Positions 2,609 through 5,643 of a DNA stretch of 44,488 nucleotides are shown piece by piece; position 1 is the stretch's first letter, and each line of letters starts with the position of its first letter. The position numbers and the translations under genes were made by a program. This DNA comes from a virus. The stretch covers positions 1 through 44,488 of IMG/VR virus record IMGVR_UViG_3300033153_014439; one strand, given 5' to 3'. The notes below the pieces were generated by a model. The model was not told the DNA's origin and ran no database searches. It saw only the letters and a list, made by a program, of their open reading frames with translations.

Positions 2609-3637
2609 CTATGTTTTTTCAAAAAGTTGGCGCCACGCCGGTTTTGCACGTAACCGGGCGTCCGTCAAGCCGCCGCGGGGCATGACCGGCCAGACCGCCG
2701 CGTCGGTCAGCGTCCAGAACGTGATGCTGGTAGCGGCGGGATGGGCGCGGACGATTGCCAGCATGTCGCGATAGGCGAGAGCCTGGGCGGTTTCCGTCCA
2801 TGTTCCGAACGGCGCCAGGCCGAGCGTGGCACGCTCCCATTCCCGGCGATTACCGATGATGACCGGGCTGCCGTCACTGCGGAAGATATTTTCGGTGATG
2901 TGCGCCTGCAAGCCGGCGGCCTCGATTTCGTACAGCGTGCGTTCGACCTCTTCGCGCGTGTACCATCGGTGCCCGTGCGCCTGAACGCCTATCGTGTCTG
3001 CGCCGACAGCGCGTGCGTAATCGACAAGCGCACCCAAACAGCATCTGTCCGACTGGCCTTGTGGCGAATGGATTACGTCCCATTCGTTCACGGCGATTGC
3101 CGCGCCTGGCGTCAGTTCGCGCGCCGCTGCCACCATTTCGGCCACCAGCGTCGCCGGCTGCGCGAAATGAATCGGCTCATTCACTATATCCCAGGCGTAG
3201 GCTATATCGCCGAATTCGCGTGCGAGTTCTTCCACGTAGCCCACGGCCTTGTCACGCGGCGTTGCGCCCTGGGGGACACCCCAAAGCGGCGTGTGCAGGC
3301 GCAGCCGCTTGCGATACTCGCGGCAGTAGTTGGCTATGGCGTGCGCGTCGGCGGGGTTCGCATTGTAGTCGCGCCATTTAAGCGCATTACAGGGCGTAAT
3401 AGTATCGAACGCCAAAAGTCGCGGCCAAAGTGCGGGAAAAAGGTCGGTGCGGGATGGTGACGGGCACCCGCAGCCGATGAGCGTCTGGCCCGGGCGCGCC
3501 TGCTCGCGCAGGAGCGCCAGGGCCTCGGTATCAAGAGCCAGCGGATGCGCAGGGGGCGCATGGCGAGGCCACAGTCGCCCAAGTGCCCCCGCGCCGCATG
3601 CCGCAGCGCCGGTTGCCAGAAATTCGCGACGGTTCAT
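2609..3637 (-). CDS. GH10 family glycoside hydrolase (endo-xylanase-like) with Tat signal
   Basis: This is a 342-residue protein. Residues 1-20 (MNRREFLATGAAACGAGALG) form a twin-arginine signal, so the enzyme should be exported folded to the periplasm or beyond. The rest is a TIM barrel with GH10 hallmarks in order: NALKW (84-88, compare NEMKW), RLHTPLWG (113-120), the acid/base motif WDIVNEP (149-155, Glu154), IGVQAHGH (216-223), the nucleophile region ITENIF (247-252, Glu249, normally ITELD) and TFWTLTDAAVW (306-316). GH10 enzymes hydrolyse beta-1,4-xylan by a retaining mechanism. Length fits a single catalytic domain. Start ATG 3637 overlaps the upstream stop as ATGA. Such an enzyme is unusual in a phage leftward operon; substrate is inferred from family only and might be a host or environmental polysaccharide. 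Confidence 0.85.
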   Translation of the reverse strand: MNRREFLATGAAACGAGALGRLWPRHAPPAHPLALDTEALALLREQARPGQTLIGCGCPSPSRTDLFPALWPRLLAFDTITPCNALKWRDYNANPADAHAIANYCREYRKRLRLHTPLWGVPQGATPRDKAVGYVEELAREFGDIAYAWDIVNEPIHFAQPATLVAEMVAAARELTPGAAIAVNEWDVIHSPQGQSDRCCLGALVDYARAVGADTIGVQAHGHRWYTREEVERTLYEIEAAGLQAHITENIFRSDGSPVIIGNRREWERATLGLAPFGTWTETAQALAYRDMLAIVRAHPAATSITFWTLTDAAVWPVMPRGGLTDARLRAKPAWRQLFEKT

Positions 3638-3828
3638 GGTGCAAGCCCCTTGTGCTGTTGCCACTGCCGAAACGCGCCAGCCATGTACATATCGACCTGG
3701 CGTTTGCTATAGCCGATCTGGCGAAGTTTGATGGCGAATTCAGCCATTGTCGGCCGGTTGCCGTGCCTGTCCATCGGCCCTGGGCTGCCATAGAAGAGTT
3801 CAATGGTCGTGGGTTGTCGCGTCCCCAT
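3634..3828 (-). CDS. Unknown 64-aa protein upstream of the GH10 gene
   Basis: ATG 3828 has a GGGAGG site. The sequence MGTRQPTTIELFYGSPGPMD is followed by a helical region ending in a basic tail; YSKRQVDMYMAGAFRQW suggests a short helix pair. The stop overlaps the GH10 start (ATGA), so the two are probably coupled. No family recognised. Confidence 0.6.
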   Translation of the reverse strand: MGTRQPTTIELFYGSPGPMDRHGNRPTMAEFAIKLRQIGYSKRQVDMYMAGAFRQWQQHKGLAP

Positions 3829-3865: not shown

Positions 3866-4117
3866 TCAAGTCGCATGCGGGTCTGCGCCGTCGGCTATTA
3901 AATCCAAGGGCGCGATGTCCAGAACTTCGCATATCCGCAAAATATCCCGCTTGCGGTGTGGGGCAATGACGCTATGCCCGCGACACCAGAGGGATACGGT
4001 CACCCGCGACACGCCGACGGCCTCCGCGAACGTGCGTTGCGTATGTCCGCGCGCGGCGATCCAGAAGCGCAATTTGTCCGGGGCGATGGGCGCGGGCATG
4101 TAGTAGGGTTCAGTCAT
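3866..4117 (-). CDS. XRE/Cro-type helix-turn-helix regulator (83 aa)
   Basis: A small DNA-binding protein. After MTEPYYMPAPIAPDK comes a classic lambda-repressor-like fold at about residues 15-75: the segment GHTQRTFAEAVGVSRVTVSL carries helix 2, turn and recognition helix, then CEVLDIAPLDLI closes the bundle. Start ATG 4117 overlaps the upstream stop as ATGA. It lies in the leftward operon about 1 kb from the divergent regulatory region (5041-5277), whose inverted repeats are plausible operators. It could be a Cro-like early repressor. Confidence 0.75.
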   Translation of the reverse strand: MTEPYYMPAPIAPDKLRFWIAARGHTQRTFAEAVGVSRVTVSLWCRGHSVIAPHRKRDILRICEVLDIAPLDLIADGADPHAT

Positions 4118-4266
4118 TTTATGCACTCCCGCATGGCTTTTGCCAGACGCCGAGCCGCCGCCTCGTTTTTGCAGCGCAACCAGGCCAAGGTGCCGTCGAG
4201 TGGAAACTCGACGTACCAGCGGCCTTGCTCGTCCTGTTCGGCGCTGATGTTCACGGGCTTTGCCAT
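4114..4266 (-). CDS. Small 50-aa protein downstream of hammerhead ribozyme 1
   Basis: ATG 4266 with an AGGAGGTGAGAA leader; the stop overlaps the next start as ATGA. The protein (MAKPVNISAEQDEQGRWYVE...LAWLRCKNEAAARRLAKAM) resembles small phage proteins made of a beta-hairpin followed by a helix, of the kind that convert a cofactor- or ligand-like strand pair into a dimer; no named family recognised. The ribozyme at 4310-4373 ends about 44 nt upstream of the start, so the translated mRNA may begin at its cleavage site (4343). Confidence 0.6.
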   Translation of the reverse strand: MAKPVNISAEQDEQGRWYVEFPLDGTLAWLRCKNEAAARRLAKAMRECIK

Positions 4267-4309
4267 TTCTCACCTCCTGCTGCTTATGCGGCTGCCATGT
4301 GTTCGGCCT

Positions 4310-4373
4310 CGCCTCATCAGCGGGCGGTCGGCCGGGCCGCCCGGACGGGAACCTTCCGGCCCCCGTTTCGGCG
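4310..4373 (-). ncRNA. Type II hammerhead ribozyme, copy 1
   Basis: Read on the minus strand: stem II 5' arm CGCC, core GAAAC, stem III GGGGGCC-GGAA-GGUUCCC, cleavage triplet GUC (4346-4344), stem I CGGGCGG / 9-nt loop / CCGCCCG (4343-4321), core CUGAUGA (4320-4314), stem II 3' arm GGCG. Every invariant hammerhead nucleotide is present (CUGAUGA, GAAA with A15.1-U16.1, H17=C). The open stem is II, hence type II. Predicted cut is between 4344 and 4343. It lies between the 69-aa gene and the 50-aa gene. Stem II is only 4 bp. Stem III is capped by a GNRA loop. Established family: self-cleaving hammerhead RNAs; the assignment here rests on direct reading. Confidence 0.88.
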
Positions 4374-4400
4374 CGCGCTTCCTCAGTTCCGCCCTTGCAG

Positions 4401-4610
4401 TCAGGCGCCGAAATATTCGAGGACATTCCGCGCAGCCGTGCACTGGAAACTGCCCGCGGCACTCGCCGGGGCATTCCGCAGCCACGCGCGCGCCTGTCGC
4501 TCCGACAACCATATGTAATCGGCCGAGTGGTCGTCTGTCTCGATCGCCTCATAGGCGATCTGCCCCGCGCGCGTGCACTGTTGCGCATATACCGGGACTT
4601 CGGTTGCCAT
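4401..4610 (-). CDS. 69-aa protein encoded between two hammerhead ribozymes
   Basis: ATG 4610 follows a GGCAGGAGG site. The protein (MATEVPVYAQQCTRAGQIAY then EAIETDDHSADYIWLSERQA) is acidic and ends VLEYFGA. Nothing in it matches a family I recognise. It is the only gene inside the 343-nt RNA (4686-4344) that the two flanking ribozymes would release, so its mRNA should have a 5'-hydroxyl and a cyclic-phosphate 3' end, or might be ligated into a circle. That would set its expression apart from its neighbours. Confidence 0.65.
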   Translation of the reverse strand: MATEVPVYAQQCTRAGQIAYEAIETDDHSADYIWLSERQARAWLRNAPASAAGSFQCTAARNVLEYFGA

Positions 4611-4653
4611 TTCTGCCTCCTGCCGCTCATGCGGCTGTTGGGTTTTCGGCCTC

Positions 4654-4715
4654 GCCTCATCAGCGGGCGGTCCGCCAGGCCGCCCGGACGGGGACCTTCT
4701 GGCCCCCGTTTCGGC
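4654..4715 (-). ncRNA. Type II hammerhead ribozyme, copy 2
   Basis: Minus-strand reading: stem II 5' arm GCC (4715-4713), core GAAAC (4712-4708), stem III GGGGGCC-AGAA-GGUCCCC, cleavage triplet GUC (4689-4687), stem I CGGGCGG / CCUGGCGGA / CCGCCCG (4686-4664), core CUGAUGA (4663-4657), stem II 3' arm GGC. All core nucleotides are conserved. Compared with copy 1, changes fall only in the stem I loop (2), the stem III loop (1) and a C-to-U that keeps pairing as G-U, as expected of a functional RNA. The predicted cut is between 4687 and 4686. The TGA TGA inside CUGAUGA also forms the stop of the open frame at 4660-5040. The sequence similarity between the copies continues into the following leader up to the next start codon. 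Confidence 0.9.
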
Positions 4716-5040
4716 TAGATCTCATCGACGAGCCAGCGCTCGCTGAACCGCCTTTCCGCCGACTGAACCAGTCTTTTGCCAGAGCACTCCACGCGCACTT
4801 ATAGTGCATCAGGATATATCGACGACGTTTCGGATGGTACTGACCCCGATTCCCGTCTTCAACAGTGATGGGCTTCCCACAGACCGCGCAATTAGGACGA
4901 TGGAACTTGATGCCTTTGTCGGTAAGGCAAAAAAATTGCACCGTGCGCCTGCGGCCATAAAATTTGCGCATGCTGCTCAAGCGGTCGAAGGCATCATATC
5001 CACCCTGACTTTTATTCAAGTGCTTTAAGTTCCGGCGCAT
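4660..5040 (-). CDS. Small zinc-finger-like protein, probably frameshifted near its end
   Basis: First leftward gene after the divergent region. ATG 5040 has an AGGAGGAGG site. It is very basic (MRRNLKHLNKSQGGYDAFDR) with a probable metal site CAVCG ... HYKCAW, reminiscent of a treble-clef or zinc-ribbon fold. In the open frame the protein has 126 residues, but the last 35 are low-complexity and run through ribozyme 2. At the run GCAAAAG (4777-4774) a -1 shift would instead give AKRLVQSAERRFSERWLVDE-I and stop at TAG 4717-4715, exactly where the ribozyme begins. Either a base is missing in the sequence or the gene uses a frameshift. Function unknown; DNA- or RNA-binding is likely. Confidence 0.65.
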   Translation of the reverse strand: MRRNLKHLNKSQGGYDAFDRLSSMRKFYGRRRTVQFFCLTDKGIKFHRPNCAVCGKPITVEDGNRGQYHPKRRRYILMHYKCAWSALAKDWFSRRKGGSASAGSSMRSSRNGGQKVPVRAAWRTAR

Positions 5041-5106: not shown

Positions 5107-5135
5107 ATTGTAGTGCGAATGCAAAGGAATGGCAA
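5107..5135 (-). promoter_or_regulatory. Leftward sigma70-type promoter of the early operon
   Basis: Minus strand: -35 TTGCCA (5135-5130), spacer 17 nt, -10 TACAAT (5112-5107), each one base off consensus. It fires toward the gene at 5040, with a leader of roughly 55 nt. A further -10-like TATACT lies upstream at 5147-5142 with a weak TTGAAA (5168-5163) 15 nt away, possibly a second start. Confidence 0.65.
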
Positions 5136-5277: not shown

Positions 5278-5643
5278 ATGGCTAAGCCCCGCAGCCCCAA
5301 GAACTTGCGCGTGGCGGTGCAAGGGGCGCGGGCGCGCGAGAGGCGCGACGAGAGGTTGCTCGCGGCATATCGCGCGCGATGCGTGCGTGCACGCTGGCGC
5401 ACATCGCGCGAGCGCGCGAGCGCGCGGCGTGCGCGAGTGCGCGGGGGGTGCGGGGGTGCTTGGAGTGCGGCGGGGGACGGGGGATGGAATCTACCCTGCG
5501 CTTTCACGCGGCCGGGGAAATCGCGTGGAATCCTACGCTGCGATAACGGGGTTCCCGCTGCAAATTGCGTGCCGGAATCCGACAGCGAAAATCGTGCCAA
5601 AAACGGTGCAGAGACATGCCCAAGAAACTCCACGAAGCGTTGA
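5278..5643 (+). CDS. Possible arginine-rich protein opening the rightward block
   Basis: ATG 5278 starts a 121-codon frame. The first 35 residues (MAKPRSPKNLRVAVQGARAR then ERRDERLLAAYRAR) look like a real basic helical protein. The following part is encoded by an extremely CG-rich run (5395-5480, many alternating CG) and reads as low-complexity Arg/Gly, so either the gene ends differently or this part is non-coding or structured RNA. The start has no clear ribosome site. Low confidence. Confidence 0.35.
   Translation: MAKPRSPKNLRVAVQGARARERRDERLLAAYRARCVRARWRTSRERASARRARVRGGCGGAWSAAGDGGWNLPCAFTRPGKSRGILRCDNGVPAANCVPESDSENRAKNGAETCPRNSTKR

Follow-up and report, generated by a model that had tools for sequence, protein, structure and literature searches.

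Paired type II hammerhead ribozymes at gene junctions of a leftward phage operon: candidate sites of mRNA processing

What purpose might be served in a phage by two similar ribozyme motifs that lie in the same direction on either side of one small gene? The question is raised by the IMG/VR virus record IMGVR_UViG_3300033153_014439, which was analysed over its whole length of 44,488 nucleotides (hereafter the window). The window is a phage contig with terminase, portal and major head proteins encoded on the plus strand; no DNA similarity to known phages was found, and searches with the terminase or with gene A, the first gene of the operon described below, returned no relatives of this phage.

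Both elements lie on the minus strand, copy 2 at 4646–4716 (core match 4657–4712) and copy 1 at 4303–4373 (core match 4314–4369), each including a 3′ pseudoknot tail. They share the order 5′-stem II-GAAA-stem III hairpin-GUC-stem I hairpin-CUGAUGA-stem II-3′, with a loop closing each of stems I and III, and with stem II open. Stems II, III and I measure 3, 8 and 7 bp in copy 2 and 4, 8 and 7 bp in copy 1, the stem III hairpin carrying a loop of four bases in each. The type II core (CUGANGA, GAAA and UH at the cleavage site) is exact in copies 1 and 2, and cleavage is predicted at 4687/4686 (copy 2) and 4344/4343 (copy 1). Exact matches to the pattern GAAAC..GUC..CUGAUGA numbered two in the window against a mean of 0.05 in 100 dinucleotide shuffles of it, none of which held two, and a chance origin of the paired cores is therefore excluded. 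Loop I pairs with the 3′ tail in a pseudoknot of 5 bp in copy 1 (CGGCC/GGCCG) and of 4 bp, including one G.U, in copy 2 (UGGC/GCCG). Four differences separate the copies across the folded part. One changes C to U in stem III, where pairing is retained as G.U; another falls in the tetraloop of stem III; and of the two in loop I, one preserves and the other breaks pseudoknot pairing. Immediately beyond the 3-bp stem II, a fifth difference provides the fourth stem II pair of copy 1. No third copy was found in the window by Rfam or by the R1 model described below.

A preliminary description of this DNA, from which the pseudoknot was absent, had already read these elements as two complete minus-strand type II hammerheads with the core intact and in the right order, with the same cut positions and with copy differences that fall in loops or keep pairing; all of this was borne out, core, stems and pseudoknot being found in both copies. 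The covariance search against Rfam that it proposed gave a divided answer: neither copy matched at the gathering cut-off, copy 2 reached 36.6 bits against RF02276 (Hammerhead_II; gathering cut-off 37) at an E-value threshold, and copy 1 was absent from the RF02276 matches even there. This shortfall is one of database threshold and no feature of the ribozyme itself. R1, a covariance model built from 51 aligned phage hammerheads of similar architecture, scored copy 2 at 51.6 bits and copy 1 at 44.0 bits, values that are not independent because copies 1 and 2 both served to train it. Like RF02276 (PMC3088659), the pair combines the permutation with open stem II, an intact core and a bacterial or phage setting, and it has the pseudoknot between loop I and the 3′ tail that is common but not universal in type II; it differs from RF02276 in being GC-rich, with an 8-bp stem III and a 7-bp stem I, and in scoring below the gathering cut-off in both copies. 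A reading of copy 2 as RAGATH-1 (RF03152) was rejected: the match, which overlaps copy 2 only and has no counterpart in copy 1, reached 31.7 bits against a cut-off of 56.3, the upstream core of that family is altered in copy 2, and the arrangement by which it was judged, CUGAUGA upstream of GAAA with a loop on stem II, was not found.

Relatives were collected by pattern scanning, twice over viral contigs and once over genome contigs, which yielded about 178 loci. A descriptor requiring the core and all three stems returned 275 elements from these loci (273 after a second copy of the window had been dropped) and none from Markov-shuffled versions of the same DNA. The 273 type II hammerheads lie in about 165 loci, 48 of which hold several copies; the loci were picked for carrying the motif, and these counts describe the collection rather than a frequency among phages. 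Of the cells in the 51-row alignment, 89.7% pair, as against 64.8% when shuffled and about 40% when slid, and changes on both sides were seen in 6/6 pairs of stem I and 4/5 pairs of stem III, although pairing in stems I–III is partly built in because these stems were required for selection. The pseudoknot was no selection criterion; 74.5% of its cells pair in the 51 rows, with both-side changes in 5/6 pairs, and it pairs in 74% of 231 non-redundant elements against 32% with shuffled partners. The unpaired core bases are near invariant among the relatives. As predictions from sequence, the two window elements are thus supported as complete type II hammerheads by core, pairing, pseudoknot and covariation in relatives. 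A distinct subgroup (L002, L006, L008, L023, L029, L047 and L051) departs from the common architecture in having a stem I of 33–34 nt with a second hairpin inside. Among cultured relatives, no hammerhead arrays were found in Polewnik, Catdawg or ctfzr933; PaP3, for which a core-variant hammerhead has been reported, was likewise matched by neither R1 nor Rfam, and these negatives therefore carry little weight for hammerheads of variant or other types.

The pair sits in an operon read leftward in the order promoter, gene A (start 5040), copy 2, gene B, copy 1, gene C, gene D. The candidate sigma-70-like promoter (TTGCCA-17-TACAAT, minus strand 5107–5135) is a consensus match only, at 10/12 positions. 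Gene B (4401–4610, minus; 69 aa) lies between the ribozymes; its ATG is preceded by an AGGAGG-type ribosome-binding site (RBS), its own frame has a coding score of 18.0, the two others −26 and −25, and it had no match in Pfam or PHROG. Gene C (4114–4266, minus; 50 aa), the first gene past copy 1, scores 17.5 in frame and had no match in Pfam; its stop overlaps the start of gene D (ATGA). Gene D (3866–4117, minus; 83 aa), also supported in frame by coding statistics, encodes a Cro/C1-type HTH regulator (Pfam HTH_31 and HTH_3; PHROG transcriptional regulators). Alignment of the copies delimits a leader with RBS from copy 2 to gene B (4611–4645, minus) and from copy 1 to gene C (4267–4302, minus). 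That the operon is early is plausible, given the promoter and the HTH regulators in it.

Gene A was assigned to 4715–5040 (minus) from coding statistics. The ORF that starts at 5040 (126 aa) stays open until 4660, inside CUGAUGA, but over codons 85–108 the starting frame scores −5.8 and frame 2 scores +5.4, and frame 2 closes at a UAG (4717–4715) that directly abuts copy 2 and is the probable stop of the gene. The long ORF running into the ribozyme may therefore not be the real reading frame, and a nonstop design with the stop of gene A inside CUGAUGA was rejected, as codon statistics favour the frame that ends before the ribozyme. The change of frame itself may reflect a sequencing error, a mutation or frameshifting, which are indistinguishable here.

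Several other features of the region were recorded. A glycosyl hydrolase family 10 gene (2609–3664, minus; xylanase-like, predicted TAT signal, E 1.7e-19) belongs to the same leftward operon and is unusual phage cargo. Further along the minus strand, 85–738 encodes a 217-aa protein of short degenerate repeats (DSARI..M-like units), and the gene starts at 1–80 and about 800–953 have near-alike N-termini (FSG.AL.RHNR.LDWSDSHEDII), a gene duplicated in tandem and truncated where the contig ends. Upstream of the operon's promoter, 5330–5480 is a long alternating GC-rich stretch (CGCGCGCTCGCGCG...).

Since same-strand copies flank gene B and the contig carries phage genes, the window is a case of clustered phage hammerheads. 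The preliminary description had thought a tandem pair bracketing a phage gene uncommon; this view did not hold, as Perreault et al. in 2011 (PMC3088659) reported prophages in which several hammerheads flank one gene or a short gene block, de la Pena in 2017 (PMC6155905) said likewise, and 48 of the about 165 related loci are multi-copy. In the 2011 work, tandem arrays cleaved in vitro and one did so in E. coli cells, while 4/18 consensus hammerheads were inactive in vitro. The prophage clusters of Agrobacterium tumefaciens, Azorhizobium caulinodans and Clostridium scindens (PMC3088659, Fig. 3) resemble the window in that same-direction hammerheads flank genes or short blocks, and are unlike it in the genes flanked (ardA in A. 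tumefaciens) and in that cleavage was demonstrated. The HHphage variant of haloviruses HF1 and HF2, with a mapped mRNA 5′ end near the cut, likewise lies just upstream of an early viral gene (a helicase), but has a variant core, a single copy and an archaeal virus as its setting (PMC3088659). Type II hammerheads, their pseudoknot and their clusters around phage genes are thus already published, and the window pair adds members.

As to function, the ribozymes probably cut the polycistronic mRNA of the leftward operon at its gene junctions. Hammerhead cleavage leaves 2′,3′-cyclic phosphate and 5′-OH ends. The nascent transcript would be cut after 4687 and after 4344, at a gene junction each time; the 8-bp stem III hairpin and a 2′,3′-cyclic phosphate would then close the upstream message, and the downstream message would open with a 5′-OH and the stem I hairpin of 7 bp, behind which comes the next gene's RBS. 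The products would be messages A, B and C-D, capped by hairpins, separately stable and uncoupled from one another.

The placement of the relatives bears on this reading. In 77% of the 231 non-redundant elements, an upstream ORF (at least 35 codons) stops no more than 12 nt 5′ of GAAA, which holds for 10% of positions taken at random in these loci; when each locus contributes a single element, the count is 92/142. The stop codons peak 5–7 nt before GAAA, and the next start, searched for with a Shine–Dalgarno sequence (SD) required, follows at a median of 27 nt past stem II. All copies lie on one strand in 48/48 multi-copy loci. Whole records hold up to 13 hammerheads (G012), followed by 11 (G002), 10 (G023) and 9 (G003, G009 and G011), so that arrays in these wider phage records reach 13 as compared with the clusters of PMC3088659. 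The phage operons L180–L186 carry 6–13 same-strand hammerheads each, most of them 2–10 nt from an upstream stop codon. In seven array operons mapped with a simple home-made gene caller, the segments between ribozymes mostly hold one gene (24) or two (11). The array genes are mostly small and of unknown family, and also include clamp loader, topoisomerase, amidoligase and WhiB families; none of the families listed is structural. In a literature search mostly outside subscription journals, no paper was found that treats long arrays or the placement at stop codons, and this placement is new as far as that literature shows. A position at gene ends is by itself no proof of mRNA processing, because compact phage genomes put intergenic elements near stops.

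The same placement is open to another reading, in which stem II and the core lie under the terminating ribosome, so that cutting tracks upstream translation and the ribozyme acts as a regulator instead of constitutive punctuation. The stop peak at 5–7 nt before GAAA is inside a normal ribosome footprint, and the probable stop ahead of copy 2 falls in the peak position; an equal spacing is, however, expected from compact genomes with minimal intergenic DNA, and such gating is considered unlikely.

Comparison within and between records indicates what has been duplicated. Identity is 0.71 within against 0.63 between records for the ribozyme and 0.62 against 0.49 for the downstream leader, and barely differs for the upstream sequence (0.50 against 0.47); between the window copies it is 0.91 for the element, 0.77 downstream and 0.50 upstream. 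The duplicated unit looks like a ribozyme with its leader and RBS. A selfish cassette of ribozyme and RBS, spreading in the phage with no benefit to it from cleavage, would likewise leave copies alike in ribozyme and leader and unlike upstream. Against this, other arrays hold strongly diverged copies (elements 0.71 identical on average) in which pairing and core are kept, and copies are always sense and at gene ends, features which point to selection at each site and make a purely selfish cassette very unlikely.

Among the points that speak against processing are a competing lower fold in both window copies, the pseudoknot of only 4 bp in copy 2 and the inactivity of some of the consensus hammerheads in the 2011 work. 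The nested hammerhead fold lies 7.5–7.9 kcal/mol above the computed minimum free energy in both copies, with the pseudoknot uncounted; the gap has a median of 2.3 kcal/mol in relatives and reaches 7 or more in 13% of these, so that the window copies exceed about 87% of them and may, by this calculation, fold less efficiently than most. The pseudoknot and co-transcriptional folding, both outside the calculation, would offset part of the gap. The favoured competing fold is what inactive remnants or plain stabilising intergenic hairpins might be expected to show, but both copies retain the unpaired core unaltered, relatives hardly vary there, and plain hairpins need no such core; this explanation, too, is held to be highly improbable.

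RtcB joins 5′-OH and 2′,3′-cyclic phosphate ends. Circularisation of the freed gene B mRNA by an RtcB-type ligase, for which cuts on both sides would yield the proper ends, appears extremely improbable, being weakened by the near absence of phage ligases (RtcB in 1/41 multi-hammerhead phage records and RNA_ligase above cut-off in 0, though hosts may supply them) and by the search of Perreault et al. for circular or spliced products, in which none were found (PMC3088659).

Processing at gene junctions is most likely on the strength of the intact cores, the covariation and pseudoknot pairing in relatives, the stop-codon placement, the confinement of copies to one strand, the one- or two-gene segments, the duplicated ribozyme with leader and the published cleavage of tandem arrays. 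A broader generalisation is offered tentatively and may well prove wrong: that there are ribozyme-punctuated operons, in which a cassette of hammerhead and RBS stands at most junctions of a non-structural operon, in up to 13 copies that begin only a few bases from the stop codon, with the window pair as a short example. Such operons might give single-gene, hairpin-capped messages without host nucleases, with cutting perhaps timed by translation termination. The function of hammerheads in bacteria and phages was termed an open question in 2017 (PMC6155905). The repetition of stop codon, ribozyme, RBS and start on one strand narrows that role to mRNA processing at gene junctions, and the placement makes exact predictions of transcript ends, of message length and of dependence on upstream translation.
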